Made by a program: the position numbers and the translations under genes
NCBI GenBank assembly: GCA_039815145.1
Contig: JBCBZW010000033.1
Location: 1 to 45,360, forward strand
DNA from: Pseudomonadota bacterium
Lineage (GTDB): Bacteria > Pseudomonadota > Gammaproteobacteria > Steroidobacterales > JBCBZW01
Direction: 5' to 3'
DNA: 45,360 nt
Notes under the pieces: generated by a model
Databases searched by the model: none
The model's input: the letters and a program-made list of their open reading frames with translations, nothing else
Told to the model about the DNA's origin: nothing
Shown here: positions 24,229 to 38,432 of the stretch, piece after piece
Layout of the letters: each line of letters starts with the position of its first letter
Numbering within the stretch: position 1 is the stretch's first letter

Positions 24229-24852
24229 CTAGTAGGGTTGCACGTCGATCAGCGTGGTCCACGAGGGTGGCACCTCCGCCTCGATGAGCGGCGCGATGGC
24301 GCTGAGCGCAGCATCTTCCGCATATAAGGTATCGGCGAATGCGGCGCTCACGAGCGAATAGAACTCTCGCCCACCCACGGCCAACCCCACCTTGTAGCGA
24401 TCGATGGTGTCGAGGACGGCCGCCACCTGCTCGTAGGCGTAGGCGATCGCCGCGGATTCCTCCGGATCGACACGCGCGAAGATGGCCGCGCTCAGGGCCG
24501 TCTCGTAAGCGGCACGGGTCACCGTTGGCGTGCCGAAGCCCCGATAGGCGGGCACCGAGCTCGGCACGTCGCCCGCCGCATCCTGCAGCGCCGCATCTCT
24601 CGCCGCCACGATCGCGGGCAACAGCGAGAGATGGTAGGCGCGGCTCTGTTCGATGCGTGAGAAGTTCTCGCGCAGCTCGGCCAGCATCACCTCCTGGCTG
24701 CGGGTGACGAACTCGGCGAGCTCGCGATCCTCGCGGCGCTCGTCGAGCCACAACCCGAGCAGGACGCCAAGCACGATGAGCGCGACCTCGGCGATCAATA
24801 CCGGTAGCCGGCGTGTCCACGATGTGTTCGGCGACGTTTCGCTAGCGCGCAT
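24229..24852 (-). CDS. Membrane-anchored protein of unknown function
   Basis: 207 residues with one N-terminal transmembrane helix (LIAEVALIVLGVLLGLWLDE) right after a short basic region, then a long helical, Glu/Ala-rich domain likely in the periplasm. This N-terminal pattern is common in small uncharacterised proteins of xanthomonads and related marine bacteria. No catalytic motif is visible. The ATG at 24852 gives the natural start before the helix. It starts 36 bp after the stop of the DUF2834 gene and may share its transcript. Confidence 0.75.
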   Translation of the reverse strand: MRASETSPNTSWTRRLPVLIAEVALIVLGVLLGLWLDERREDRELAEFVTRSQEVMLAELRENFSRIEQSRAYHLSLLPAIVAARDAALQDAAGDVPSSVPAYRGFGTPTVTRAAYETALSAAIFARVDPEESAAIAYAYEQVAAVLDTIDRYKVGLAVGGREFYSLVSAAFADTLYAEDAALSAIAPLIEAEVPPSWTTLIDVQPY

Positions 24853-24888
24853 ATGCGTGTGTTGGATCTCCCAAGGACGGGGGCAGAC

Positions 24889-25218
24889 TCACACGGCGGG
24901 GGCCGCCTTGTCGAGGGCGGCTGCGTCATCGCGGGCGGCACAGAAGTACAGGTAGGCCGGCAGCGCGCAGGACAGGCCGATGGCCAGGTTGATCGCCACG
25001 AACGGCAGCGGGTTGGGGCCGCGGCGGGAGAGCATGAAGACGAGGAAGGTGATCGAACTCAGGATGAGATCGGCGGAGAGCCCGCTCACGGCGCCGTTGG
25101 CGAACCACGCGTCGACGAAACCGCCGAGGGCCACGCCATCGCTCCTCATGAAGTCGATAAACCCGAGGTAGGGTACGATCGCCCCGACCACCGCAAGCAG
25201 CAGATACACTCGTTTCAT
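24889..25218 (-). CDS. DUF2834 small membrane protein
   Basis: 109 residues with three hydrophobic segments. The N-terminus MKRVYLLLAVVGAIVPYLGF and the later FANGAVSGLSADLILSSITF match DUF2834, an uncharacterised family of short inner-membrane proteins. The ATG at 25218 is chosen because CGAGGAG lies about eight bases upstream; longer frames upstream have no support. The gene is divergent from an XRE/MmyB-type regulator gene, with a palindrome in the 128-bp gap, so control by that regulator is likely. Confidence 0.88.
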   Translation of the reverse strand: MKRVYLLLAVVGAIVPYLGFIDFMRSDGVALGGFVDAWFANGAVSGLSADLILSSITFLVFMLSRRGPNPLPFVAINLAIGLSCALPAYLYFCAARDDAAALDKAAPAV

Positions 25219-25281
25219 GGCGCACTCCTCGTCGCGTTCTTCGATGGCACCACACGCTACCGGGTGCGTCGAAGGAGGCCA

Positions 25282-25298
25282 ATGACCTATGAGGTAAT
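25282..25298. promoter_or_regulatory. Palindromic candidate operator between divergent genes
   Basis: ATGACCTATGAGGTAAT is a near-perfect inverted repeat (ATGACCT and AGGTAAT around ATG, 6 of 7 pairs). It lies 64 bp from the DUF2834 start and 49 bp from the regulator start, where a repressor or activator of both could bind. The regulator at 25347 is the obvious candidate. No second copy was seen upstream of the operon at 26331. Confidence 0.5.
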
Positions 25299-25346
25299 GG
25301 CGACGCCCACACGCGCGCCGCGACGACCGATGCTGAGGACACACTG

Positions 25347-26180
25347 ATGGCCGCTCCCCGCGCACGCTCAGAACCGACCGTCGATTTCGGCGCACTCCTG
25401 CGCGACTGGCGCCGGCACCGCCAGATCAGCCAGCTCGCTCTGTCGGCGGCCTCCGGCATCTCCCAGCGCCACATCAGCTTCCTCGAGAACGGCCGCGCTC
25501 GCCCGAGCCAGGGCATGGTGGTGGCCCTGGCCGACGCCCTCGACGTGCCCCTGCGCGAGCGCAACACGCTCCTGATCAGCGCGGGCTACTCGGCCAACTA
25601 CGCGACACAGGCCCTGCAGGGCGGCCAGCTCGCCGTGTTTCGCCAAGCCATCGATGCCCTGCTGGCGCAACAGGAGCCCTACCCCGCCATCGTCCTCGAC
25701 GGTCGCTGGAACCTGGTGCAACTCAACGCGGGGGCCACCCGCTTCTTCGGCAACTTCATCGAGCTGCCGGCCCCCCAGTCCCCTGCCACCGGCGACTTTC
25801 AGCTGGTTCACCTGTGCCTGCAGGACGAGGGACTACGCCCGGCCCTGATTAACTGGGAAGAGGTGGTGCACGCGTTCTTGCAGCGCGCCCGACGCGCCCT
25901 GCTCGTGAACCCACGAGATCGCGCCTTGGGCGCACTGGTGGAGATGATCCTGCATCACCCGGATGCGCCCGAACGGTGGCACACCCCAGACTGGGACGGC
26001 GAGCCTGCGCCGGCGATCACCCTACGCCTCGAAGACGGGGGCGAGCGCTTCGAACTGCTCACCATGCATGCCCACTTCGCCGGCTCGCAACAGGTGTCCC
26101 TCGAAGAGCTCACGGTGGAATTGTTCTTCCCGGCGAACGCCCACACGGCCGCCTGGTTCGCCGCACCGCCGACCGACTGA
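25347..26180 (+). CDS. XRE-type HTH regulator with MmyB-like ligand-binding domain
   Basis: 277 residues. The N-terminal helix-turn-helix (about 13-67: LLRDWRRHRQISQLALSAAS, then GISQRHISFLENGRARPS) is a standard XRE/Cro fold that binds palindromic DNA. The remainder (about 90-270) matches the MmyB-like domain: YPAIVLDGRWNLVQLNAGA, a central NFIELP region and the C-terminal EELTVELFFPA. MmyB-like domains have a PAS-like fold and are thought to bind fatty-acid-like ligands, though few are studied. It is divergent from the DUF2834 gene and lies 150 bp upstream of the Rieske operon on the same strand, so it could control either. Confidence 0.93.
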   Translation: MAAPRARSEPTVDFGALLRDWRRHRQISQLALSAASGISQRHISFLENGRARPSQGMVVALADALDVPLRERNTLLISAGYSANYATQALQGGQLAVFRQAIDALLAQQEPYPAIVLDGRWNLVQLNAGATRFFGNFIELPAPQSPATGDFQLVHLCLQDEGLRPALINWEEVVHAFLQRARRALLVNPRDRALGALVEMILHHPDAPERWHTPDWDGEPAPAITLRLEDGGERFELLTMHAHFAGSQQVSLEELTVELFFPANAHTAAWFAAPPTD

Positions 26181-26267
26181 CCTCACCTACGCATAGCATT
26201 AGCTCGAGCACTCAAGCCCTTCAGGAGGACGTTTCAGGGGCCATCGAATCGCCTACCCGGCGGCGAG

Positions 26268-26296
26268 TTGTAACCGTCAAGCCCCACTGGAATACT
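26268..26296 (+). promoter_or_regulatory. Candidate sigma-70 promoter of the Rieske operon
   Basis: TTGTAA (26268-26273) and AATACT (26291-26296) are separated by 17 bp; each matches four of six consensus bases. The predicted transcription start is about 30 bases before the first small gene at 26331. This is a pattern match only. Confidence 0.35.
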
Positions 26297-26330
26297 GATG
26301 CTACGTGACCCAAAGGGGGGATGGGGAGCG

Positions 26331-26486
26331 ATGATCGAGTGGTTCGAGCTCGCCGCGGTGGCTGTGGCGCTGGCCGCCGTTACCGTGCTGATCCGCACCT
26401 TCCTGAGCGTCTCCCTATCCGTGCAGCTGCACGGCCCTTGGTCGAGGCAAGCGCCGACACCTTCCACGACCACCGCAGGAGACTAG
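26331..26486 (+). CDS. Small single-span membrane protein heading the Rieske operon
   Basis: 51 residues. MIEWFELAAVAVALAAVTVLIRTFLSV-type sequence gives one transmembrane helix close to the N-terminus, followed by a short polar tail. The ATG at 26331 is preceded by GGGGAGCG; an upstream in-frame ATG at 26298 would add a polar segment with no ribosome binding site. The stop lies one base before the GTG start of the Rieske-ThDP gene, which supports it as a real first gene of the operon. No family is recognised; it may anchor or recruit one of the soluble redox proteins. Confidence 0.6.
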   Translation: MIEWFELAAVAVALAAVTVLIRTFLSVSLSVQLHGPWSRQAPTPSTTTAGD

Positions 26487-26487
26487 C

Positions 26488-28461
26488 GTGGCCCTTTCCT
26501 GGACTCGCGTTGCTGACCTGGACGAGCTGCCCAACGGTCGCGTCAAGACCGTCACCGTCGGCACCCGCTCGATGGCCCTGGTGCACTTCGACAACCAATA
26601 CGCCGCCATGGACAACCGCTGCCCCCACCAGGGAGGTCCCCTCGGCGAAGGCTCCATCGAGCGCGGCGTCGGTGGTGAATGCTGGCTGCGCTGCCCCTGG
26701 CACGGGTGGGACTTCCACCCGCTCACGGGACAACCGCCCGGTGGCCACGAGGACAGCGGCCAGGAGATGTTCCCCGTCGAGGTTCGCGACGACGGCATCT
26801 ACGTCGGCGTGGAGGTCGAGCCGCCGCACACTCGCACGGTCACGGACGTGATGGCCGAGACGATGGTCAACTGGGGCGTGAAGCGCGTCTTCGGCATGGT
26901 GGGCCATTCCAACCTCGGCCTCTCCGACGCCCTGCGCCGGCGGGAGGTGGACGACGAGCTCAGCTACATCGGGATTCGCCACGAAGGGGCTGCCTCCTTC
27001 GCCTGCTCCGGCTACGCCAAGCTCTCCGGCAAGCCCGCCGCCTGCTTGACCATCGCCGGTCCGGGGGCCACCAACCTGATGACCGGCCTGTGGGATGCCA
27101 AGGTGGACCGGGCGCCGGTCCTGGCCCTCACCGGTCAGGTGCAGGTGCAGGTGTTCGGGCCCGGCGCCTTCCAGGAGATCGATCTCGCCACCGCCTTCGC
27201 ACCCGTAGCGCGCTTCAGCCAGGCCGTGCTGCACAGCTCCAACCACGCGGAGCTCATGTCCCTCGCGTGTAAGAACGCCATCGTCGAGCGAGACGTGGCC
27301 CACCTGATCTTCCCGGACGACGTGCAAACCCGCCCCGCCGCGGAGGACGCCCCGGCCGGATCGCCTGCCGGACGGCTGGGGGATCACGCCATCGCGCCCG
27401 CGGCGGACGCCCTCGATCAGGCGGTGGAACTGATCCGCCGCGCCGAGCGACCGATGATCGTCGTCGGCTACGGCGCGCGCGATTGCATGGCGCCGATCGT
27501 GCGCCTCGCCGAGCGGCTGCAAGCGCCCGTGGTCACCACCTTCAAGGGCAAGGGGCAGATCCCCGATGCGCACCCGAACGCCGCGGGCGTGCTCGGGCGC
27601 TCGGGAACCCCCATCGCCAGCTGGTTCATGAACGAGTGCGACCTGATCATCGCCTTAGGCTCGTCCTTCTCCAACCACACGGGCATCGAAGCGAAGAAAC
27701 CCATCATTCAGGTGGATTTCGAAGCGATGCAGCTCGGCAAGCTCCACCCGGTGGAGGTGCCGATCCTCGGCGAGATCGCCCGCACCACGGAGCTCATCCT
27801 GGAGGCGCTGCCGAGCGAACTTAGCGTGCAGGACCAGCGCCCGGAACTGGCCCAGCGCTGGGCGGCCTGGCGGGAGGAGAAGGAGGGGCGTGCCAAGGAC
27901 GACAACCTCCACGGCGTGAACTCCGCGGCTATCTTCGCCGCCCTCACCCGCCTGGCGCCCGAGGATGCGGTGATCGCCGTCGACGTTGGCAACAACACCT
28001 ACTCTTTCGGTCGCTACTTCGAGTGCGCCGGCCAGGCGGTGCTCATGTCCGGCTACCTAGGCTCGATCGGCTTCAGCCTGCCAGCGGCCATCGGCGCCTG
28101 GTGCGCCACCCAGGACTTCGATGAGCATCGCGGACGCAAGGTGATCTCCGTCTCCGGCGACGGTGGCTTCGGCCAGTACCTGGCCGAGTTCACCACGGCC
28201 GTGAAGTACGGCATGAACATCACCCACATCCTGCTCAACAACGGCGAACTCGGCAAGATCTCCAAGGAGCAACGCGCCGGGGAGTGGGAGGTGTGGCAAA
28301 CGTCCCTGCACAATCCGAGCTTCGCGGCTTACGCCGAGCTATGCGGCGGGCTCGGCCTGGAGGTGCGCGCTCTCGACGATCTGGACGCGGCCATGCGCAA
28401 GGCCCTCGCCCACGACGGCCCCGCCCTGCTCGAAATCATGACCGATGCCGAGCTCGTGTAG
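26488..28461 (+). CDS. Rieske [2Fe-2S] domain fused to a thiamine-diphosphate enzyme
   Basis: 657 residues. The N-terminal 110 residues are a Rieske domain: Cys45-x-His47 (RCPHQGG) and Cys69-x2-His72 (CPWHGW) ligate a [2Fe-2S] cluster. From about 115 it is a full ThDP enzyme of the acetolactate synthase/pyruvate oxidase/sulfoacetaldehyde acetyltransferase type: catalytic Glu166 (RHEGAAS), GPGATNLMTGL, a central domain (LIIALGSSFSNHTG) and the ThDP/Mg motif from SGDGGFGQ to LLNNGEL. Such enzymes cleave C-C bonds next to a carbonyl. A fused Rieske cluster suggests electrons leave or enter the reaction, as in oxidative decarboxylation, but the substrate is unknown. The start is a GTG at 26488 with AGGAG six bases upstream. 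It is the first large gene of the operon. Confidence 0.9.
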   Translation: MALSWTRVADLDELPNGRVKTVTVGTRSMALVHFDNQYAAMDNRCPHQGGPLGEGSIERGVGGECWLRCPWHGWDFHPLTGQPPGGHEDSGQEMFPVEVRDDGIYVGVEVEPPHTRTVTDVMAETMVNWGVKRVFGMVGHSNLGLSDALRRREVDDELSYIGIRHEGAASFACSGYAKLSGKPAACLTIAGPGATNLMTGLWDAKVDRAPVLALTGQVQVQVFGPGAFQEIDLATAFAPVARFSQAVLHSSNHAELMSLACKNAIVERDVAHLIFPDDVQTRPAAEDAPAGSPAGRLGDHAIAPAADALDQAVELIRRAERPMIVVGYGARDCMAPIVRLAERLQAPVVTTFKGKGQIPDAHPNAAGVLGRSGTPIASWFMNECDLIIALGSSFSNHTGIEAKKPIIQVDFEAMQLGKLHPVEVPILGEIARTTELILEALPSELSVQDQRPELAQRWAAWREEKEGRAKDDNLHGVNSAAIFAALTRLAPEDAVIAVDVGNNTYSFGRYFECAGQAVLMSGYLGSIGFSLPAAIGAWCATQDFDEHRGRKVISVSGDGGFGQYLAEFTTAVKYGMNITHILLNNGELGKISKEQRAGEWEVWQTSLHNPSFAAYAELCGGLGLEVRALDDLDAAMRKALAHDGPALLEIMTDAELV

Positions 28462-28464
28462 GGG

Positions 28465-28704
28465 ATGGAAGCGTTCGTCCGCGCAGCCCTGCTCGCCACC
28501 GCCGTCTACGCGCTCCTGGGGGCGCTGTTCGGCCTGTGGTTCGTCAGCGCTGGCCATCGGCGCCTGGACCAGGCGCCGATGAGCGTGTGGGGGCGCATCA
28601 TGATCTTCCCCGCCAGCGCCGCCCTGTGGCCACTTCTGCTCGTCCGTGTGCTCACCGTGCGCGTACCCTTGAACGCCGTCGACGGAGGCGACATCGCCCC
28701 ATGA
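28465..28704 (+). CDS. Small two-span membrane protein
   Basis: 79 residues with two hydrophobic segments (ALLATAVYALLGALFGLWFV and MIFPASAALWPLLLVRVL) joined by a short polar loop containing SAGHRRLDQ. The start is 3 bp after the Rieske-ThDP stop, and its own stop overlaps the next start (ATGA, 28701-28704). No family is recognised. Position suggests a membrane subunit or assembly factor of the redox system. Confidence 0.72.
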   Translation: MEAFVRAALLATAVYALLGALFGLWFVSAGHRRLDQAPMSVWGRIMIFPASAALWPLLLVRVLTVRVPLNAVDGGDIAP

Positions 28705-28865
28705 TGCAAGCTCACCGCCACTGGCATCTGGCGCTCTGGTTGCTCCTCGGACCCACCATGCTGCTCGTCATCTGGTTCGCCCTGGCGCTGCGTCCGCCCG
28801 CCGCGGTCAACGACTCGCTGCCCCCCAGCCTCACCACCGCACTCGACGAGGCGACTGATGAGTGA
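28701..28865 (+). CDS. Small single-span membrane protein
   Basis: 54 residues; one transmembrane helix (LALWLLLGPTMLLVIWFALAL) after a short His-rich start (MMQAHRHWH), then a polar tail. Starts within a 4-bp overlap with the previous gene and overlaps the next gene by 8 bp (28858-28865). The tight overlaps on both sides support it as a real gene despite its size. Histidines near the membrane could bind a cofactor, but this is not shown. Confidence 0.65.
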   Translation: MMQAHRHWHLALWLLLGPTMLLVIWFALALRPPAAVNDSLPPSLTTALDEATDE

Positions 28866-29934
28866 GGGCTACGGCGCCGTCGGCTGGAACGGTTTCAAGC
28901 GACGCTACGACCTGTCGATCGCTGGCGGCGCGATCACCTATCTGGTCGTCTTTGTTGCGGTCACACTCCTGACCCGGCCCGCCGATCAACCGATGGCGGA
29001 GCTGCAGCTGCTGATCCGCGCCTTCGGCAGCCTGTCCTTTTTGATGCTGACGCTGATTCTGTGCATCGGCCCCTTGGCACGCTTCAGCCCCCGCTTCAAA
29101 CCCATGCTGTACAACCGTCGTCATCTCGGCGTCACGACGTTCTTCATCGCCCTGGTGCACGCCATCGCGGTGTTGATTTGGTACCACGGCTTCGGCGTGA
29201 TCGACCCGATCACGTCGCTCTTCGTCTCCAATCCACGCTACGACTCGATCGCGGGCTTCCCCTTCGAGAGCCTCGGCGCCCTGGCGCTCGCCATCCTCTT
29301 CCTGATGGCGGCGACCAGCCACGACTTCTGGAATGCCAACCTCGGCCCGGCCCTGTGGAAGGCCTTGCATATGGGCGTGTACCTGGCCTACGCCGCACTG
29401 GTCGGCCACGTAGCCCTGGGGGTGATCCAGTTCGAGAAGGACCCGCTCTACGTGACCGCTCTCGGGGCCTCGGTGGTCACCGTCACGGCCCTGCACCTGG
29501 CGGGTGCGTTTGCCAGCGCGCAGGGCAAACGCTCGCCGGCCGCCGACGGGTGGCTGGACGCCGGGCCCGCGCTCGAGATCCCCGACACACGCGCCGTGAT
29601 CCTGACACCGCCCGAGGGCGAGCGCATCGCCGTGTTCCGCGACGGCCTGCAGGTGATGGCCGTCTCCAACGTGTGCCGCCACCAAGGGGGCCCCCTGGGC
29701 GAGGGGCGCATCCTGGACGGTTGCGTCACCTGCCCCTGGCACGGCTTTCAATACGATCCCGCGAACGGGCGCTCCCCGCCACCCTTCAACGAACGTATCG
29801 CCACCTACCAGACGCGCTCGGCGGATGGACGCATCTGGGTGAACCCACAGGGTAATCCTCCCGGCACACCGGTCGCCCCAACCCTTCTGCCGGCAGCAAA
29901 GGCAGACCAACAGCCCCCGGAGCGCCAGCCGTGA
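28858..29934 (+). CDS. Ferric-reductase/MsrQ-like haem membrane domain fused to a Rieske domain
   Basis: 358 residues. About six membrane spans cover residues 18-220. His101 (LVHAIAV), His171 (ALHMGVY) and His184 (VGHVAL) fit the haem-ligand pattern of ferric-reductase-like proteins; the last two are 13 apart, as in MsrQ. After residue 240 there is a complete Rieske domain: Cys273-x-His275 (CRHQGG) and Cys292-x2-His295 (CPWHGF). So one chain can carry electrons between a membrane haem and a [2Fe-2S] cluster. Family members normally have a C-terminal FAD/NAD domain or none at all, so this arrangement is unusual. It overlaps neighbours on both sides (8 and 4 bp) in the operon. Confidence 0.88.
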   Translation: MSEGYGAVGWNGFKRRYDLSIAGGAITYLVVFVAVTLLTRPADQPMAELQLLIRAFGSLSFLMLTLILCIGPLARFSPRFKPMLYNRRHLGVTTFFIALVHAIAVLIWYHGFGVIDPITSLFVSNPRYDSIAGFPFESLGALALAILFLMAATSHDFWNANLGPALWKALHMGVYLAYAALVGHVALGVIQFEKDPLYVTALGASVVTVTALHLAGAFASAQGKRSPAADGWLDAGPALEIPDTRAVILTPPEGERIAVFRDGLQVMAVSNVCRHQGGPLGEGRILDGCVTCPWHGFQYDPANGRSPPPFNERIATYQTRSADGRIWVNPQGNPPGTPVAPTLLPAAKADQQPPERQP

Positions 29935-30689
29935 GCGACGACAACGACTACTTCATCGGCTACGCCGCCGAAACACCCGCGCGCGACCGACGCTTCATGC
30001 TCCGGCTCGGTCTCAGCCTGACCTTGGGCTGCGGCGCGCTTGGCGCCGGCCTGGCCGCCTTCCAACGCCAGCCAGGCAACGGCACCTGGGACGTCGAAGA
30101 TCGGCAATGGCAGGGCGTCGTCCACGCGGATCCCTTCCCTATGCTGCGCACGCGAGACGTGGACGGCACCGTGCGCAGCCTCTGGTTGGTATGCCCCTTC
30201 AAATGCGGCGTGCGCACGATCGTGAGCGCCTACGACGGCCAGGCGGTGACCCTGCGCGGTAGCCTCATCGCGCGCGATGGCTTCTACATGCTGGCCGCCG
30301 CCGAGGGCTCGGATTGGATCGCGCCGGCATCGTCGACCGCGGAGCCCGCATTAGGGTTACCGGCAGCGGAGTCGCTCGAACGCGTGACGCTGGTTGGCGA
30401 GATCCTCGACATGAAGTGCTTCGCGGGCGCCATGCGTCCGTCCACGGGCAAGCCGCACAAGGCCTGCGCCTCCCTGTGCATTCGCGGCGGCGTTCCGCCG
30501 GCGTTGTTCGCCCGTGATCGCCGCGGTGCCTATCGGCCTCTGCTGCTGGTGGACGAAAACGGCGAGGCGCACAGTCCCGAGCCCCTGCTCCCCCTGGTCG
30601 CCGATCCGGTGCGTATCGAGGGCCAGCTCCTGCGCCGTAAGGACACCCTGTTCCTCAGCTCACCTATCGCTGACATTCGTCGAACCTAA
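29931..30689 (+). CDS. Membrane-anchored Cys-rich protein of unknown function
   Basis: 252 residues starting at a GTG overlapping the previous stop by 4 bp. One transmembrane helix (about 22-44) is followed by two similar beta-rich segments, each ending near a small OB-like strand pattern (VTLRGSLIARDGFYML and VRIEGQLLRRKDTLFL). Cysteines are at 88 and 92 (CPFKC) and at 163, 179 and 183, the latter with His176 inside DMKCFAGAMRP and KPHKACASLC. The clustering suggests a metal, haem or disulphide centre outside the cytoplasm. I know this Cys motif only from uncharacterised proteins. Its place next to the haem-Rieske protein implies a role in the same electron path. Confidence 0.82.
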   Translation: MSDDNDYFIGYAAETPARDRRFMLRLGLSLTLGCGALGAGLAAFQRQPGNGTWDVEDRQWQGVVHADPFPMLRTRDVDGTVRSLWLVCPFKCGVRTIVSAYDGQAVTLRGSLIARDGFYMLAAAEGSDWIAPASSTAEPALGLPAAESLERVTLVGEILDMKCFAGAMRPSTGKPHKACASLCIRGGVPPALFARDRRGAYRPLLLVDENGEAHSPEPLLPLVADPVRIEGQLLRRKDTLFLSSPIADIRRT

Positions 30690-30721
30690 GCCACCTACAC
30701 GCGCCTGACCGAGAACACGCC

Positions 30722-32338
30722 ATGAAGAAGACAGCCATCCTCGACTGGTCCTCCCTTGCCGACCGCGACCCCACCTACGCCCTGGTCGCCAACGTCGACC
30801 TCGTCGTGGTGCGCTTCGACGAGCGCGTCTCCGTGCTCTACGGCCGCTGCGCTCACCGCGGCGCGCTGATGTCGGACGGTCATATCGACGGCGACAATCT
30901 GATCTGCGGCGTGCACAACTGGGACTATCGCTACGACACAGGGGTGAGCGAGTACAACAACGCGGAGACCCTGCCCAAGTTCTCCGCGTGGGTAGACGAG
31001 GGCAAGGTCTGGGTGGACGAGGATGAGATCGCCGCCTGGCACGACGCCAACCCGCAACCCTATCGGCGCGATGAGTACCTCGGCCTCTACGCTGACCCCG
31101 TCGGCGCGGAGGAGGAGCCGCACGTCAAGCTGATCCAGCACTACGCCGAACACGGCCTGTCGCAAACCGGCCACCACGGGATGACCGCCGCCATGGGCGT
31201 CCCACGCCAGGAACTGCCCAGTTGGGACGACCTGCAGTTCATCACGGCGCAACTCCATCGCCTGCCCCTCCTGGACGATGAGGCCGTCGCCACGGAGACG
31301 GTCATCGGCCCCGAGGCAGCCAAGCCCCTGCGCCTGGAGATTCCGCTCTTCGTGTCGGACATGAGCTTCGGCGCCCTGTCGGAAGCGGCCAAGGTCTCGC
31401 TGGCCCGCGGCGCGGAGCTGGCGGGTACGGGCATCTGCTCCGGCGAGGGCGGCATGCTGCCGGAGGAGCAGGCCGAGAACTCACGCTATTTCTACGAGCT
31501 CGCGTCGGGCCGCTTCGGCTGGCACATGGACAAGGCGCGCCAGGTGCAGGCCTTCCACTTCAAGGGGGGCCAGGGCGCCAAAACCGGCACCGGCGGCCAC
31601 CTGCCCGGGGCCAAGGTGCAGGGCAAGATCGCCGAGGTGCGCGGGCTTACGCCCGGCACCGCCGCCATCTCACCGCCTCGCTTCCCCGATTGGACGGAGC
31701 TGAGCCAAATCCGTGACTTCGCGAACGAGGTGCGCGAGGCGAGCGGTGGTATTCCGATCGGCTACAAGCTCTCCGCCCAACACATCGAAAAGGACATCGA
31801 TGCGGCACTCGAGGTGGGCGTGGACTACATCATCCTCGACGGCCGCGGCGGTGGCACGGGCGCGGCGCCCCTGATCTTCCGCGACAACATCTCCGTGCCC
31901 ACGATTCCAGCCCTGGCCCGTGCCCGCCGCCACCTCGATGGCCTCGGCCGCGACGACGTCACGCTGGTCATCACCGGCGGCTTACGCAAGCCTGCCGACT
32001 TCGCCAAAGCGCTGGCCCTCGGCGCCGATGCGATCGCCGTCTCCAACGCAGCCATTCAGGCCATCGGCTGCCTAGGCATGCGCGCCTGCCACACCAACAA
32101 CTGCCCGGTCGGTATCGCCACCACTAACCCTGAGCTGACCGCCCGCCTGGAGATCGAGCGCTCGGCCGAACGCCTCGCGCGCTTCTTCAGCACCAGCGTG
32201 GACCTGATGAAAATCCTCGCCCGCGCCTGCGGCCACCGCTCGCTCGCCGAGTTCCGGCGTGACGACCTGGTGACCTGGAAGGAGTCGATGGCGCGCCTGG
32301 CTCACGTGAACTTCGGCGGCGACGCACCTTCCCCCTGA
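30722..32338 (+). CDS. Rieske domain fused to FMN-binding glutamate synthase-type domain
   Basis: 538 residues. The first 100 residues form a Rieske domain with Cys43-x-His45 (RCAHRG) and Cys62-x2-His65 (CGVHNW). From about 130 the chain matches the glutamate synthase central/FMN domain: SDMSFGALSEAAK, GEGGM, KGGQGAKTGTGGHLPG, and ILDGRGGGTGAAP for FMN phosphate. Cys450-x5-Cys456-x4-Cys461 has the exact spacing of the glutamate synthase [3Fe-4S] cluster. The glutamine amidotransferase and C-terminal GXGXG domains are absent, so it cannot by itself be an ordinary glutamate synthase. The reaction is unknown: perhaps amination or oxidation using electrons from the Rieske centre. Last gene of the operon, 32 bp after its neighbour. 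Confidence 0.9.
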   Translation: MKKTAILDWSSLADRDPTYALVANVDLVVVRFDERVSVLYGRCAHRGALMSDGHIDGDNLICGVHNWDYRYDTGVSEYNNAETLPKFSAWVDEGKVWVDEDEIAAWHDANPQPYRRDEYLGLYADPVGAEEEPHVKLIQHYAEHGLSQTGHHGMTAAMGVPRQELPSWDDLQFITAQLHRLPLLDDEAVATETVIGPEAAKPLRLEIPLFVSDMSFGALSEAAKVSLARGAELAGTGICSGEGGMLPEEQAENSRYFYELASGRFGWHMDKARQVQAFHFKGGQGAKTGTGGHLPGAKVQGKIAEVRGLTPGTAAISPPRFPDWTELSQIRDFANEVREASGGIPIGYKLSAQHIEKDIDAALEVGVDYIILDGRGGGTGAAPLIFRDNISVPTIPALARARRHLDGLGRDDVTLVITGGLRKPADFAKALALGADAIAVSNAAIQAIGCLGMRACHTNNCPVGIATTNPELTARLEIERSAERLARFFSTSVDLMKILARACGHRSLAEFRRDDLVTWKESMARLAHVNFGGDAPSP

Positions 32339-32497
32339 GCTGAGCCACCCTTTCTACCTCTCCTCGCCGGCGCGCATTGCCGGCGGGCTCGCTTGGCGCA
32401 TCTGCCACTCGCGCCCTCTGTCGCCGTCTTAGCGTTGCACCTGGCTGCCCGCCGACCCCCGCGATTGCGCACATTCAAGCGGTGACATGGATTGCGC

Positions 32498-32650
32498 GCA
32501 ACAGCGTCTCCGTTCATGCGCTTCGCAACATTTTAGTGTTTTCAGCAACATACCCTCTGACACGCTACAATTTAGCTACAAAAGCAACACTTTCGCTTGC
32601 ATAACAACAAACCACCTCCATATGCTCGGCCGCACTGGAGAGAATGTTGC
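32498..32650. repeat. Cluster of GCAACA repeats upstream of the TonB receptor
   Basis: GCAACA occurs at 32498, 32525, 32545 and 32584 on the plus strand and once inverted (TGTTGC, 32645-32650) within 153 bp. The first spacings are 27, 20 and 39 bp, so they are not a strict array. They could be half-sites for a regulator of the receptor gene at 32777, but may be chance in an A-rich stretch. Confidence 0.4.
32597..32626 (+). promoter_or_regulatory. Candidate promoter of the TonB receptor gene
   Basis: TTGCAT (32597-32602) and TATGCT (32621-32626) with an 18-bp spacer give a weak sigma-70 match inside the AT-rich region. It would leave a leader of about 145 bases before the ATG at 32777. Confidence 0.28.
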
Positions 32651-32776
32651 GAATACACCAATGATTTTTAGCGGCAAAACAGATAGAACGATATCTTTCG
32701 TTGCCTTTTCACAACACTCTTCAGGCCTAGCCACGTCACATCCCGCTCGCAAGGTGGGAGCCGGAGGAGTCTAGAG

Positions 32777-35743
32777 ATGCAACGACTGAACCTATCGCGA
32801 GCTGTCCGCCACAGCCTTTTCTCCGCAGGCCGCAGGGCCGCGCTGGCCGGTGCCTTCCTGGCGTCCGCCAGTGTGCTGGTGCCTGCGACCGCGCAGGAGG
32901 CGCCCACCGAGGTCGAGGAGGTGGTGGTCACCGGATCGCGCCTGACCGACCCGAACCTGACCCAATCGAGTCCCGTCGCCACCGTCACCTCGGAGCAGGT
33001 GGAGCTGCGCCAGGCCAACTTCGTGGAGGAGTTCATCCGCGAGATCCCGGGCGTAGTGCCGAGCATCGGCGCCCAGGTCAACAACGGCAACGGCGGCTCC
33101 ACCTTCATCAACCTGCGCGGCCTCGGCTCAAACCGAAACATCACCCTGCTGAACGGCACGCGAGTGGTGCCGGCCGACCTGCAGGGTCGCACCAACCTGG
33201 ACATCATCCCCATCGCCCTGGTCGAGCGAACGGATGTACTCACCGGCGGCGCGGGCTCCACCTACGGCGCCGACGCCATCTCGGGCGTGGTGAACTTCAT
33301 CACCCGGCAGAACTTTGAGGGCTTCGACCTGCGCGTGACGGGCGCGCGAACGGCGGAAGGAGACGGCGATACCCTGCGCATCGACCTGACCACGGGCGGC
33401 AACTTCGACGGTGGGCGTGGTAACGCGGTGTTCAGCGTCGGCTATACGGATCGTGAGGCGATCCTCCAAGGCGATCGCGACTTCGGCGTCGAGAACCTCT
33501 CCTCCGCGACGGGTGCACCGGGCGGGTCGAGCACCACCGTGCCCACGGTGCTGACCTTCCCGGGCAGCGGCGGCACGGTGCAGGTCTCCCCCGACGGCGA
33601 CTCGGTAATCCCCTTCTACCAGCCCTTCAACTTCAACCCCTTCAACCTGTTCCAGCTGCCCCTGGAGCAGTACCGCTTGTACGGCTCAGCCCGCTACGAA
33701 CTCGACAGCGGCATCGAGATGTACACCGAAGCGTTCTATTCACAAAGCACCAACCGCACGCAGATCGCGCCCTCGGGCACCTTCCGCAACGTCTTCACGA
33801 CGCCGCTGTCCAATCCGTTCCTCCCCGCGGGGATTCGCAACCAGATCTGCGGCGCGGACTCTGACGCGGCCACCGACGGTGTCCAGCCGAACTTCTCCCA
33901 AGCGGAGTGTGACGCTGCCGCCCTGGCGACGGACCCGAACGACCCTGCCTACCGCACGATCGATCTCGACTACGGCCGACGCTTCGTCGAACTCGGCACG
34001 CGCGATAACGAGCGCCAAAGCCGCGTCTGGCAGTTGAAGGCGGGCGCCCGCGGCGATCTCGTCTCGAACCTCTCCTGGGACGCCTTCTTCGCCTACGGCG
34101 AAAGCGACCTGCGCGGCTCCCAGTCGGGCAACGGCACGCGCACCCGTCTGCAACAGGCCCTGCTGGCCACCGACCCGAACGCGTGTCTGGACCCATCCGG
34201 CGGCTGCGTGCCCATCGATCTGTTCGGCCCCCTGGGCAGCATCACCAACGAAGTCGGCGCGTTCCTCGATGTGGGCAACACCTCGAACCAATTCACCACC
34301 CTGCTCCAAGGCCAAGCGTTGGTGAGCGGCGATGTGAACACGTCCATGCCCTGGGCAGAATCGCCGATCGGCTTTGCCGTGGGTGCGGAGTACCGCGATT
34401 ACGAGGCTGGCTTCGCCAACGACCTGCTGACGCAGACGCCGGGCGAAGTGCTGGGCAACGGCGCCGCCGCACCTAATGTCACCGGCAGCTACGACGTTCG
34501 TGAGGTGTTCACGGAGGTCAACGTGCCGCTGGTGCAGGGCGCCGCCTTCGCCGAAGAGGTCAGCCTCCAGGCTGGCGCTCGCCTCTCCAACTACAGCACC
34601 ACCGGAGATGAGAGCACCTGGAAGGTCGGCGGCACCTGGAGCCCCGTGGGCGGCTTCCAGATCCGCGGTAACCTGCAGCGGGTGACCCGCGCGCCGAACA
34701 TCAACGAGCTGTTCGCCCCGCAGGTCACGGGCCTGAACAACTTCGCGACCGATCCCTGCACGGGCAACGCGCCGCTGGAGAACGAGGATCTGCGGCAAAT
34801 CTGCCTGGCCCAGGGCGCGCCGCTCGGCACCATCGGCAGCATCATCGTCGACCCCGCTGGCCAGGTGAACGCCACCACCGGTGGCAACCCCAACCTCGAC
34901 GCGGAGGACGCCGACACCTGGACCATCGGCTTCGTCATGCAGCCCGACTTCGCGCCGAACCTGGCGGTGACCCTGGACTACTACAACATCGAGGTCAGCG
35001 ACGCGATCACCAACCCGAACCCGGGTGACGTGTTCGCGGCCTGCTTCGGGCCTGACTTCGAGGACGGGACGCTCGCGATCAGCGGTGCCTCCGCCTCGGA
35101 CCCGGCCTGCACGGGCATCCGTCGCAACCCGGCCACGGGCAACCTGTTCGGCGACGTATCCACCACCGCCGGCCTACCGTTGGTGTTGAGCAATCAGGGG
35201 GCCCTCGCCACCAGCGGCATCGACGTGTCCCTGAACTGGCAGGGCGACCTGGGCTTCGCCCGCTTCTCCAACAGCTTCAACGGCAACTGGACCCAGGAGT
35301 CTGTGTTCAACGCCAACGTCGACAACCCCGACTCCATCGATCGTGATTGCACGGGCTTCTACAGCATCAACTGTGCCTCGATCCAACCCGAGTTCAGCTT
35401 CTCCAACCGGGCGACGCTGAGCTTCGACGGCATGGATCGTCCGGTGGACGTTTCTGTGTTCTGGCGCTGGATCGATGCGGTGGAGGCGGAGCCCGAAGTG
35501 GCGGACACCTTCCTCGAGGAATTCCGGGAGATCGATGCGGAGAACTACATCGACCTCACGGCACGGGTGCAGCTGACGCAGCGCCTGCAGTTGACCGGTG
35601 CGGTGCTCAACGTGTTCGACAACTTGCCCACAATCGTCGGCAACAACATCGGCACCACGGCCTTCAACTCGGGCAACATCTACCCGAGCACCTACGATCC
35701 CCTGGGTCGGCGCTTCTCCCTCACCGTGCGTCATACCTTCTAA
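32777..35743 (+). CDS. TonB-dependent outer-membrane receptor
   Basis: 988 residues, the size of large receptors for siderophores, carbohydrates or peptides. A signal peptide (residues 1-40, ending PATAQ) is followed by EVEEVVVTGSRL, the usual TonB-box-like start of this group, and a plug domain with FINLRGLGSNRNITLLNGTR and GGAGSTYGADAISGVVNF. The remainder is a 22-strand barrel pattern ending in a terminal Phe (RRFSLTVRHTF), as required for BAM-mediated insertion. It needs TonB-ExbB-ExbD from elsewhere. Extracellular loops contain several Cys pairs (for example QICGADSD and EAECDAA-like QAECDAA). The ATG at 32777 has GGAGGAG upstream. It stands alone, so the ligand cannot be guessed; no lipoprotein or degradative enzyme is adjacent. 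Confidence 0.95.
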   Translation: MQRLNLSRAVRHSLFSAGRRAALAGAFLASASVLVPATAQEAPTEVEEVVVTGSRLTDPNLTQSSPVATVTSEQVELRQANFVEEFIREIPGVVPSIGAQVNNGNGGSTFINLRGLGSNRNITLLNGTRVVPADLQGRTNLDIIPIALVERTDVLTGGAGSTYGADAISGVVNFITRQNFEGFDLRVTGARTAEGDGDTLRIDLTTGGNFDGGRGNAVFSVGYTDREAILQGDRDFGVENLSSATGAPGGSSTTVPTVLTFPGSGGTVQVSPDGDSVIPFYQPFNFNPFNLFQLPLEQYRLYGSARYELDSGIEMYTEAFYSQSTNRTQIAPSGTFRNVFTTPLSNPFLPAGIRNQICGADSDAATDGVQPNFSQAECDAAALATDPNDPAYRTIDLDYGRRFVELGTRDNERQSRVWQLKAGARGDLVSNLSWDAFFAYGESDLRGSQSGNGTRTRLQQALLATDPNACLDPSGGCVPIDLFGPLGSITNEVGAFLDVGNTSNQFTTLLQGQALVSGDVNTSMPWAESPIGFAVGAEYRDYEAGFANDLLTQTPGEVLGNGAAAPNVTGSYDVREVFTEVNVPLVQGAAFAEEVSLQAGARLSNYSTTGDESTWKVGGTWSPVGGFQIRGNLQRVTRAPNINELFAPQVTGLNNFATDPCTGNAPLENEDLRQICLAQGAPLGTIGSIIVDPAGQVNATTGGNPNLDAEDADTWTIGFVMQPDFAPNLAVTLDYYNIEVSDAITNPNPGDVFAACFGPDFEDGTLAISGASASDPACTGIRRNPATGNLFGDVSTTAGLPLVLSNQGALATSGIDVSLNWQGDLGFARFSNSFNGNWTQESVFNANVDNPDSIDRDCTGFYSINCASIQPEFSFSNRATLSFDGMDRPVDVSVFWRWIDAVEAEPEVADTFLEEFREIDAENYIDLTARVQLTQRLQLTGAVLNVFDNLPTIVGNNIGTTAFNSGNIYPSTYDPLGRRFSLTVRHTF

Positions 35744-35778
35744 GGTCGCTTCAGGCAGCTGAAGACACCCCCCTGTCA

Positions 35779-35808
35779 GGGCCCGGAGTTCCTCCGGGCC
35801 CCTCGTTT
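35779..35808 (+). terminator. Terminator hairpin of the TonB receptor gene
   Basis: GGGCCCGGAG (35779-35788) pairs perfectly with CTCCGGGCCC (35792-35801) around a three-base TTC loop, followed by CTCGTTTG. The T-run is short and broken, but position (36 bp after the stop) and stem strength fit a Rho-independent terminator. Confidence 0.7.
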
Positions 35809-36434
35809 GTCGCGCCAAGTCTCCTCCCTCCGATCAGCCTCCTGCCCATCGCGTGAGATTCCGAGGCCCCCGGCGACACTAAGAGGTTAGCGGGCACCAG
35901 TCACGCACCGATCAGGGCTCGGACAAATCCCACCCCCGCGCCCATTTTCCGGTCTCGAAATTCGGCAACTGCGCTGGCCCGCACGTTCGCGCGCCGAGGT
36001 TGCCCGCCGGCACGCCGCCAGCCCCAGAGGATCGGTCCCAGCTGCCGCCGAGCCGGGCTGCGGATTTCCTGGCGCACCATAAGTAAACGAACCGCGTTCA
36101 GTCCCGTTAGGCAAAGACAGAATCAAAAAACCGGTCGGCAGGCGGCCCAATGGAAAGTGAACTGGTGCGCAGATCTTATGCAATAGTGTGCAAAGACACC
36201 GAAAATGGCGGCAACCGCCTGATTTTCCGTGGTTCACCTCTAGGCAACCCCTTTCCTAGGAGGTACCCTGTCCACCTTCCGTGGGAGGGTGCTATGCAGC
36301 ACGCCGGCAGACGGGTGGTAGCACCGCTACGACAAACCCCTCTGGTGACCCGCCCGACTTCCTGGGCACCGCCCATCGTCCTGCCAGATTCGTGCTGGCT
36401 GGGCCCCAAATGACGCTTGGATTGGAAACATAAG
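35809..36434. other. 626-bp intergenic region before the polysaccharide genes
   Basis: Short open frames exist on both strands but none has a ribosome binding site or recognisable protein. The left half shows nothing notable. The right half holds a series of hairpins (36197-36330, listed separately). I saw no JUMPstart/ops element and no clear promoter. Confidence 0.55.
36197..36330 (+). ncRNA. Candidate structured leader RNA upstream of the sugar dehydratase gene
   Basis: Five consecutive hairpins can be drawn by hand. (1) 36197-36231: CAC.GAAAAT.GGCGG pairs with CCGCC.ATTTTC.GTG around a CAA loop. (2) 36236-36264: ACCTCTAGG with CCTA(G)GAGGT, one bulge. (3) 36265-36290: ACCCT/AGGGT enclosing CCAC/GTGG. 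(4) 36289-36302: GTGCT/AGCAC, which competes with (3) for two bases. (5) 36314-36330: GTAGC/GCTAC, which competes with GGTG/CACC. There is no T-run. It matches no riboswitch class I know, and could equally be a DNA element or act on the other strand. Strand is assumed from the downstream gene. Confidence 0.4.
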
Positions 36435-38432
36435 ATGCTGGACGATCGGCTCCTCGCGACGGTCATAACGAAGGCACGCCGGCTTGCGCTTGGCATGCCC
36501 CGCCCGATGAAGCGCACCATGCTGGCAGCGGCGGATATCTGCCTGGTGTCCGCGGCGTTTCTGGCCGCTTGGTGGATCGTCTACCGGAACACGCAGAGCG
36601 CCGCGATGCCTTGGGCCCTGCTGGTCGCCGTCGCCGGCACCACGGTGGTCTTCTGGGTTCAGGGCCTCTACCGCTCGATCACCCGCTTCGTCGATGCCCG
36701 ACTCGCCGTTCGCGTGTTGCGAGCCCTGCTGTACGTCGGCGTCGCCGGCGCACTGCTCGCGAGCGTCCTCAGCATTGGCGAGCCGATCGAGGCTGCCGCC
36801 CTAGTGGCCGTGTTCACCGCGTTCACAGCCATCAGCACCAGCACCGTGCGATTGATCGTTCGCAGCTTCCTGCTCCGTCCGCGCAGAGGCTGTGAGCGAG
36901 TGCTCATCTACGGCGCCGGCCAGGCGGGCATCGCCCTCGGTACCAATCTGATGCGCCAGCGCTCCTTCTATCCCGTCGGCTTCGTCGATGACGATCCGCG
37001 GCTGCAGGGTAGTTTCATTAGCGGACTGCCCGTCATTTCCCCGAACGACATCCTACGCGTGGTTCACCGCGAAGGCGTGCGCAGAGTGCTGCTGGCGCTG
37101 CCCACGGCCACCCGTGACCGGCGCCGAGAGATCCTCGACTTCCTCGAGGGGCTTCCCGTGCGCATCCAGACCATGCCGAACATCCACGACCTCATCTCAG
37201 GTCGCTCGCACCTCGCGGAACTGCGCGATGTCTCCGTGGGCGATATCCTCGGCCGCGACCCGGTGAAGGCTGACCGAGATATCATGCGTGCGCATGTCCA
37301 TGGCAAGACCATCCTGCTGACGGGTGCCGGTGGTTCGATCGGCTCCGAGCTCGGCAGGCAACTGGTGGTGCACGAGCCGAAACGCATCTTGCTGTTCGAG
37401 CAGTCGGAACTCGCGCTCTACAACGCGGAGCGCAGCTTGCGTAAGTTGGCCGCCGGAATTGGTGCCGAGACGGAACTCGTGCCGCTGCTCGGCAGTGTTC
37501 AGGATCATCAACGGGTCGATTCGGCACTTACCACCTACGCCGTCGACACGGTCTACCACGCGGCCGCTTACAAGCACGTGCCGATCGTCGAACACAACAT
37601 CTCCGAGGGCATCCGCAACAACGCGCTCGGCACGCGCGTCGTCGCCGAAGCCGCGCGTCGCCACGGTGTGGGGGTGTTCGTGCTCGTGTCGACAGACAAG
37701 GCGGTCGCTCCCACCAGCGTCATGGGCGCCACCAAACGCTTTGCAGAACTGATCCTGCAGGGCATGCAGAAGCTCGAAGGCAAGACCAAGTTCTGCATCG
37801 TGCGCTTCGGCAACGTGTTGGAGTCTTCCGGGTCAGTGGTTCCGCTGTTCCGCGAGCAGATCCGTTCTGGTGGACCCGTAACGGTCACCGATCCCGAGGT
37901 GACGCGCTACTTCATGACCATCCCGGAAGCATCACAGCTGATCATCCAGGCCGGCGCGATGGGCCGCGGCGGTGACGTTTTCGTGCTGGAGATGGGCCAA
38001 CCTGTGCGCATCGCCGACCTGGCGACACGCATGATTCGTCTCATGGGACGCACCGTGAAGGACGCCAATCACCCCGAGGGTGAGGTGGAGATCCAGTACA
38101 CCGGCCTGCGCCCGGGTGAGAAATTGCACGAGGAACTGCTGATCGACAGCGCCGTCGAGCACACGGATCACCCGGAGATCATGCGCGCGATGGAACGTTC
38201 CCTGAGCTGGGATCGGGTGAGCATGGTCATCGAGAAGATGCGCGAAGCACTCGATTCGGAGAATCTGGATGAGGTTCAAGGCCTGCTCGCCTCGGTCGTC
38301 GATGGCTACGCGCCTGAGAAACTCGATGACTACCTGATGGGAACTGCCCACGCGTCCAAGCCCGACGGTGCGTCGATCACCTACATGTCCGGAAGCTCAC
38401 CGCTGCGGGTGGTCAACGCGCCACCGGAATGA
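36435..38432 (+). CDS. CapD/WbpM/PglF-type nucleotide-sugar 4,6-dehydratase
   Basis: 665 residues. These inner-membrane enzymes convert UDP-GlcNAc (or a relative) to a 4-keto-6-deoxy sugar, the first step to bacillosamine, QuiNAc or FucNAc. Four transmembrane helices (about 30-135) precede a first Rossmann domain (YGAGQAG, about 159) and the catalytic Rossmann domain (TGAGGSIGSE, about 296). VSTDKAVAPTSVMGATKR has the Ser-Met-Lys arrangement of the WbpM type, where Met replaces the usual Tyr. I chose the ATG at 36435 (GGAAACATAAG upstream) over a TTG at 36417. Its stop overlaps the Wzi gene by 4 bp. The sugar product is inferred from family only. Confidence 0.93.
   Translation: MLDDRLLATVITKARRLALGMPRPMKRTMLAAADICLVSAAFLAAWWIVYRNTQSAAMPWALLVAVAGTTVVFWVQGLYRSITRFVDARLAVRVLRALLYVGVAGALLASVLSIGEPIEAAALVAVFTAFTAISTSTVRLIVRSFLLRPRRGCERVLIYGAGQAGIALGTNLMRQRSFYPVGFVDDDPRLQGSFISGLPVISPNDILRVVHREGVRRVLLALPTATRDRRREILDFLEGLPVRIQTMPNIHDLISGRSHLAELRDVSVGDILGRDPVKADRDIMRAHVHGKTILLTGAGGSIGSELGRQLVVHEPKRILLFEQSELALYNAERSLRKLAAGIGAETELVPLLGSVQDHQRVDSALTTYAVDTVYHAAAYKHVPIVEHNISEGIRNNALGTRVVAEAARRHGVGVFVLVSTDKAVAPTSVMGATKRFAELILQGMQKLEGKTKFCIVRFGNVLESSGSVVPLFREQIRSGGPVTVTDPEVTRYFMTIPEASQLIIQAGAMGRGGDVFVLEMGQPVRIADLATRMIRLMGRTVKDANHPEGEVEIQYTGLRPGEKLHEELLIDSAVEHTDHPEIMRAMERSLSWDRVSMVIEKMREALDSENLDEVQGLLASVVDGYAPEKLDDYLMGTAHASKPDGASITYMSGSSPLRVVNAPPE

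Follow-up and report, generated by a model that had tools for sequence, protein, structure and literature searches.

The periplasmic repair system MsrPQ pairs a haem membrane protein with an external protein, and the pyruvate oxidase PoxB has a C-terminal membrane peptide. YedZ and STEAP proteins lack the first canonical haem histidine, and the passages of PMC3591440 dealing with these proteins give an arginine at that position as the signature of YedZ/MsrQ; a ferric-reductase-domain architecture (M4) with Rieske and FMN parts appears in a figure legend of the same paper, and type 5 CISD proteins, in which two CDGSH motifs precede an FMN domain, are set out in the corresponding part of PMC3174974. 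The present analysis concerns an operon coding for three Rieske fusion proteins in a 45,360-nucleotide stretch of gammaproteobacterial DNA (contig JBCBZW010000033.1, assembly GCA_039815145.1, positions 1 to 45,360; hereafter the window). It lies at approximately 26488-32338 on the + strand, with the gene order RTPP, S2, S3, FRDR, CYS, RGLT (TM, transmembrane segment; ThDP, thiamine diphosphate; the basis of each assignment is given last):

26488..28461, + strand: RTPP, N-terminal Rieske domain (26497-26736) followed by a pyruvate-oxidase/AHAS-type ThDP enzyme (Pfam, alignment)
28465..28704, + strand: S2, small two-TM protein (position, weak similarity, TM prediction)
28701..28865, + strand: S3, small one-TM protein (position, weak similarity, TM prediction)
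28858..29934, + strand: FRDR, six-TM ferric-reductase-domain protein with a C-terminal, predicted-cytosolic Rieske domain (29554-29772) (Pfam, alignment)
29931..30689, + strand: CYS, TM-anchored protein with two predicted OB-like domains (predicted structure, alignment; no family match)
30722..32338, + strand: RGLT, N-terminal Rieske domain (30743-30964) followed by a glutamate-synthase-type FMN/[3Fe-4S] domain (Pfam, alignment)

Our preferred interpretation, which we regard as about evenly poised between right and wrong, is that these genes encode a modular redox system in which Rieske-tagged cytosolic enzymes are plugged into a membrane haem protein that has a cytosolic Rieske domain of its own. 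Neighbouring genes overlap or almost touch, the sole exception being a 32-bp gap ahead of RGLT. The initial annotation had claimed three Rieske fusions in one operon, to a ThDP enzyme, a haem membrane domain and an FMN/[3Fe-4S] domain, and profile searches bear this out. PF00355 matches eight times in the whole genome, each time above the cut-off (20.3 bits), and three of the eight matches lie inside the operon, in RTPP (64.5 bits), FRDR (53.3 bits) and RGLT (46.0 bits); all three proteins carry the C-x-H...C-x2-H motif. The partner domains were recognized by hmmscan as three TPP_enzyme domains in RTPP (E 4e-32 to 1e-35), Ferric_reduct in FRDR (E 6e-14) and Glu_synthase in RGLT (E 2e-88). The Rieske ligands are invariant in 20 aligned RTPP sequences and in 67 aligned FRDR sequences (60 of the 65 members of the FRDR cluster, six others and the window's own).

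Conservation of the gene set was analysed with CYS as the locus marker, because CYS lies outside any large superfamily. The best 80 of 381 relatives from a contig scan were taken as loci, many of which are cut by contig ends; since the first query row came from Roseicyclus, the 80 are alphaproteobacterial, mostly from Rhodobacteraceae-type genera. FRDR is present at 77 of them. RGLT, FRDR, CYS and RTPP occur together at 28 loci, 11 lack RGLT and 10 lack RTPP; others have FRDR and CYS only (27), CYS only (3) or FRDR and RGLT with CYS in an overlapping frame (1). The order is RGLT-FRDR-CYS-RTPP at 27 of the 28 full loci, L101 having RTPP first. As the window has RTPP first and RGLT last, the order is shuffled and the set kept. 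Small membrane proteins accompany many loci: S2 (~125 amino acids, ahead of FRDR) is found at 36 of the 80 and S4 (~93 amino acids, behind CYS) at 21. Named marine isolates, e.g. Roseobacter sp. WL0113 and Roseivivax jejudonensis, have the set, RTPP being present at their loci. The same 80 loci were scanned by motif for further Rieske-tagged enzymes beside FRDR-CYS. Of the 18 open reading frames (ORFs) obtained, most look on inspection like chance matches in frames that are unlikely to be coding, a few resemble Rieske oxygenases and one is a truncated FRDR (L107).

Two genome samples were then searched; the RTPP and RGLT searches of the first and two of those of the second scored only the top 3 to 8 candidates from each genome, so that extra copies may be missed. 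Among 398 genomes of the phylum (CYS at E <= 1e-8, RTPP at E <= 1e-100, RGLT relatives at E <= 1e-80), nine have a CYS match, full-length in seven and a short homologue only in two. RTPP was found in five, all of them within the seven genomes with full-length CYS, and all five also have a Rieske-type RGLT. RGLT relatives occur in 51 genomes, 12 of them matching from the Rieske end onward (two partial or split); hypergeometric probabilities were 3e-10 for RTPP with CYS and, with these 12, 1e-8 for RTPP with RGLT. The second sample consisted of 179 genomes, one per genus, from the family of G378 (RGLT at E <= 1e-200), in which RTPP, CYS and RGLT were found in 12, 19 and 18 genomes, respectively. 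RTPP and CYS coincide in 11 genomes (1.27 expected), RTPP and RGLT in 11 (1.21 expected), CYS and RGLT in 12 (1.91 expected) and all three in 10; the hypergeometric values (8e-12, 3e-12 and 5e-10) ignore kinship and serve as guides only. RTPP lies within 5 kb of RGLT in nine of 11 genomes and within 5 kb of CYS in seven of 11. The initial annotation had held that the idea of a single system would be weakened if the genes were rarely together elsewhere; they are together far more often than expected in both samples, and often in one operon. These figures also bear on the possibility that the genes are merely co-inherited and perform unrelated redox jobs. Each part can indeed stand without the others, but co-occurrence is six- to nine-fold above expectation across the genera of one family, including cases where the parts lie at separate loci, and RTPP and RGLT are found together in Archaea too (below); we therefore consider mere co-inheritance very improbable.

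A number of observations weigh against our preferred interpretation and against a fixed composition of the set. Of the 19 genomes with CYS in the family sample, 8 are without RTPP; of the 18 with RGLT, 7 have no RTPP and 6 no CYS; one RTPP genome has no CYS and another no RGLT. From the 80 loci, 18 genomes were picked (13 with FRDR and CYS only at the locus, 2 with RTPP and 3 with RGLT), and RTPP was found in seven and Rieske-RGLT in six of them; in the 13 genomes that represent the 27 FRDR-CYS-only loci, RTPP was found elsewhere in four and not found in nine, and Rieske-RGLT was found in three. The sister genome G008 has a broken RTPP frame (L024:5621-7593), yet regulator, FRDR, CYS and TonB receptor genes are kept, and a search for RGLT there gave nothing above 37% identity; this state reflects either decay or an assembly error. 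The f55 family has Rieske-RGLT; searches found neither RTPP in that family nor FRDR in the five of its genomes checked. Finally, FRDR (E <= 1e-20) and CYS (E <= 1e-5) were not found on the haloarchaeal and mycobacterial plasmids described below, the search covering plasmids and not chromosomes. The parts are thus modular, not obligate, each also occurring without the others. RGLT and RTPP are paired in G611, G729 and G774 with CYS at another locus, and in G730 with no CYS found. Such pairs indicate that the system is made of two modules, [RGLT-RTPP] and [S2-FRDR-CYS-S4], which are often joined.

The first module extends to Archaea. Proteins with 60-63% identity to RTPP occur on four haloarchaeal plasmids, and one with 54% on a Mycobacteroides abscessus plasmid; Rieske-RGLT (60-62% identical) is encoded on three of the four haloarchaeal plasmids, at a distance from RTPP of ~1.4 kb in Salinirubellus, 4 kb in Halorarius and 17 kb in Halorubrum; the Haloferax larsenii plasmid has RTPP only. 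On Rhizobium plasmids, the companions of FRDR-CYS are instead a short-chain dehydrogenase and small proteins. Since RTPP and RGLT occur as a pair with no FRDR nearby, the main rival explanation is that they form a self-contained, redox-neutral couple, electrons from the 2-oxo acid passing through the two Rieske domains to a reductive amination, with FRDR-CYS as a separate overflow or priming module that joined later. The two genes are direct neighbours away from FRDR-CYS in G593, G596, G605, G611, G729, G774 and G730 (the last without CYS), and the three haloarchaeal plasmids, 1.4 to 17 kb separating the pair, point the same way. However, RTPP stands without detectable RGLT in G597, G606 and G607 (chosen for CYS) and in G761 (which has CYS), the seven family genomes with Rieske-RGLT and no RTPP show the converse, and in a tree without support values the Rieske domains of RTPP and FRDR are closer to each other than either is to that of RGLT. 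On balance we regard this couple as an unlikely explanation. The Rieske domain of RTPP has a short insertion with C65 in 15 proteobacterial sequences, absent from five haloarchaeal and mycobacterial ones; it could be a feature for docking to FRDR or a lineage trait only.

In the modular redox system that we favour, RTPP would oxidatively decarboxylate a 2-oxo acid, RGLT would perform glutamate/2-oxoglutarate-type amine chemistry on its FMN/[3Fe-4S] domain, and both would exchange electrons with FRDR from Rieske to Rieske; FRDR would use two b-type haems to move electrons over the membrane, the acceptor being quinone or an external metal/thiol site of CYS. As oxidative decarboxylation is a strongly exergonic reaction, electrons are likely to flow outward from RTPP; RGLT could run in either direction. 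The initial annotation had proposed one membrane-linked redox system, of which the single system is well supported by co-occurrence; that the sites hold their cofactors and that electrons pass from protein to protein, on which substrates and in which direction, is what we infer. No TM was predicted in RTPP or RGLT, and both were taken as cytosolic.

For the ThDP part of RTPP, PoxB (3eya) is the nearest solved relative both by sequence (1e-66, 27% identity) and by predicted model (Z 38.1, rmsd 3.1, 503 residues aligned, other ThDP enzymes at Z 37 and below), the central domain, where pyruvate oxidases bind FAD, being colinear with that of PoxB in the alignment. RTPP shares the three TPP_enzyme domains and the ThDP glutamate with the pyruvate oxidases and PQO; its best NCBIfam score is 381.9 against 742, short of the pyruvate oxidase/PQO equivalog score, and it falls below the curated cut-off in the 25 models listed of 58. 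Residues E166, F228, Q229, K590 and E594 are invariant in all 20 aligned sequences. They correspond to the ThDP glutamate, the FQ pair and the second glutamate of pyruvate oxidases (POX), shared with PoxB, PQO and LpPOX, and to a position where PoxB and LpPOX have a phenylalanine lining the active site whereas RTPP has the invariant lysine, K590. Given this replacement, the RTPP substrate would probably be a 2-oxo acid with an anionic side chain, a proposal that stems from the alignment. Confidence in the RTPP model (mean pLDDT 79.7) is lowest over 218-231 and 588-608; these stretches include F228, Q229 and K590, and the model is thus uninformative on the active site. RTPP differs from PoxB, PQO and LpPOX in its N-terminal Rieske domain and lacks the C-terminal extension of PoxB, since its end aligns to PoxB residue 531 of 572; the C-terminal membrane peptide of PoxB is therefore absent, and the Rieske domain would take its place.

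RGLT, at 538 amino acids, consists of the Rieske and FMN domains alone. It has no glutaminase domain and scores 128.9 against a GltB/GltS equivalog cut-off of 1047; C450, C456 and C461 align with the C-x5-C-x4-C [3Fe-4S] cysteines of GltS. E242, K281, K287 and R307 correspond to E903, K966, K972 and R992 of ferredoxin-dependent GltS, and Q978 is replaced by His293; four of the five residues of the 2-oxoglutarate site are thus kept. The FMN/[3Fe-4S] domain is 68-70% identical to that of type 5 CISD proteins, which likewise have an N-terminal [2Fe-2S] electron-transfer module, but RGLT bears a Rieske domain where they bear two CDGSH motifs and is not itself a type 5 CISD protein. The source genome has a separate CDGSH-form gene (G000:C12:13392-14609; L141:1495-3018), 68% identical to RGLT over the FMN domain; this gene adjoins a glutathione-transferase (GST)-like gene. 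A tree of FMN domains, in which the L141 row stood at wrong coordinates, did not resolve the Rieske and CDGSH forms as groups. To our knowledge, no function has been assigned to the CDGSH relatives in this 'glutamate synthase-related' FMN family.

FRDR belongs to the ferric reductase superfamily by its PF01794 score (52.7 bits, gathering threshold 28) and its paired TM histidines. By the positive-inside rule, both termini of the six-TM protein are inside, which would put its Rieske head on the cytosolic side. The TM histidines H89, H101, H171 and H184 are shared by all 67 aligned sequences, a pattern in keeping with two haems and different from the YedZ/MsrQ signature. The label 'MsrQ-like' given by the initial annotation was dropped: all four histidines are kept and the NCBIfam MsrQ score is 39.5 bits against a cut-off of 130. 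FRDR shares with YedZ/MsrQ and other ferric-reductase-domain proteins the PF01794 haem membrane domain and, as proposed here, a trans-membrane electron relay; the C-terminal Rieske domain and the operon with RTPP, RGLT and CYS set it apart.

CYS and the small proteins gave no Pfam or NCBIfam match at E <= 0.01. The Cys-rich anchored protein noticed at the outset corresponds to CYS, which has one predicted TM followed by two OB-like domains (predicted structure, pLDDT 90.4), the second containing C163, H176, C179 and C183, invariant in 55 sequences including three short homologues. A fold search against solved structures returned general OB folds only (best Z 7.2). CYS would lie outside the membrane and carry an external metal/thiol site. 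FRDR beside CYS resembles the layout of MsrPQ, whose external partner is a molybdoenzyme, CYS being instead a double-OB-fold Cys/His protein. Another explanation is redox-stress defence or repair, in which FRDR would send electrons out to CYS, as MsrQ does to MsrP, to reduce damaged thiols, metals or quinones, with RTPP and RGLT as cytosolic electron sources. The single TM and the invariant Cys/His residues of CYS, with its presumed outside location, agree with it, as do several neighbourhoods: lone Rieske-RGLT lies near pirin and nitroreductase genes at two of five f55 loci (L147, L148), L148 also being near GST-like, Oxidored_FMN, methionine-sulfoxide-reductase, YceI and cytochrome b561 genes; the CDGSH-form copy abuts the GST-like gene; the Rhizobium loci have sigma factor/NrsF genes in their vicinity, with peroxiredoxin-like and GST genes as well in one case; and a short CYS homologue stands beside a gene presumed to be SCO1-like in two genomes. 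However, at the three other f55 loci no such neighbours were seen save an MsrA-looking ORF in L149, the genes around the full operon otherwise follow no consistent pattern (transporters, antiporter, TonB receptor), and no MsrP-like molybdoenzyme is among the Pfam or NCBIfam matches of the operon. We hold a repair function to be rather improbable. The two SCO1-like genes belong to trios with a short CYS-like protein (C/H/C/C) and a second Cys-containing protein (L033:7533-9335, L034:7631-9195), for which a copper- or thiol-related role is possible.

Beyond this operon, and more tentatively, the modular redox system may exemplify a general and so far undescribed wiring in which soluble oxidoreductases of unrelated folds are attached by Rieske connectors to a shared two-haem membrane hub, FRDR-S2-CYS-S4; RTPP would then be a Rieske-coupled analogue of 2-oxoacid:ferredoxin oxidoreductase on a pyruvate-oxidase scaffold. 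CYS would represent a novel kind of external metal/thiol redox protein.

The genes around the operon are as follows:

25347..26180, + strand: XRE-family regulator with an MmyB-like ligand-binding domain (PF17765 1.6e-25, PF01381 1.5e-13)
26298..26486, + strand: S1, 62-amino-acid ORF with one predicted TM (doubtful gene)
32777..35743, + strand: TonB-dependent receptor, downstream of the operon (Pfam)

The XRE-family gene is a candidate regulator of the operon. Such a gene lies upstream of the operon in the sister genome too (L024:4328-5155), where a TonB-dependent receptor also adjoins it (L024:10321-13287). Three tiny membrane proteins had been proposed in the initial annotation. S1, having no match and no recognisable counterpart in the sister genome, may not be a real gene; S2 and S3, by position and weak similarity, match one ~125-amino-acid protein of alphaproteobacteria and are probably the N- and C-terminal halves of one split subunit. 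No RNA families were found within 24500-36500, and promoter and terminator scans of 26000-33000 gave signals not above those of shuffled sequence. Elsewhere, 15 of the 80 loci have a PF00999 antiporter close to these genes; one directly precedes RGLT in G605, and the Halorarius and M. abscessus records contain one too. The archaeal antiporter is only distantly related to the bacterial ones and that of M. abscessus hardly at all, so the link is weak. A substrate was not deduced from neighbouring transporters, the kinds of putative transport gene differing between loci. At L041 and some Roseobacter loci, a protein resembling binding proteins of tungstate type and an ABC ATPase lie behind FRDR-CYS(-RTPP), the binding-protein cluster occurring at eight of the 80 loci. 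A block of TPR, ThDP-enzyme and OpgC-like genes is divergent beside FRDR-CYS on Rhizobium plasmids (L022, L023), and a similar one, judged by looking at the sequence, lies beside the short CYS homologue of L034 (G564).

The fusion partners all come from known families, and, according to the parts of PMC3591440 and PMC3174974 that concern them, a Rieske-bearing ferric-reductase-domain architecture and CDGSH-FMN fusions are already published. The literature searched, which took in few subscription journals or preprints and no supplements, yielded no account of the Rieske-ThDP fusion, of CYS as a family or of the conserved gene set. There is a real chance that the membrane hub is a kind of its own, and CYS is now defined as a conserved protein outside Pfam and NCBIfam. 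If our interpretation is true, ThDP enzymes would have a third route of electron hand-over, besides FAD/quinone and ferredoxin-type clusters, and there would be a function to seek in the Rieske-fused members of the 'glutamate synthase-related' FMN family. The occurrence of the set in named marine isolates opens it to direct deletion testing. The operon may thus encode an undescribed electron route between the metabolism of the cell and its membrane.

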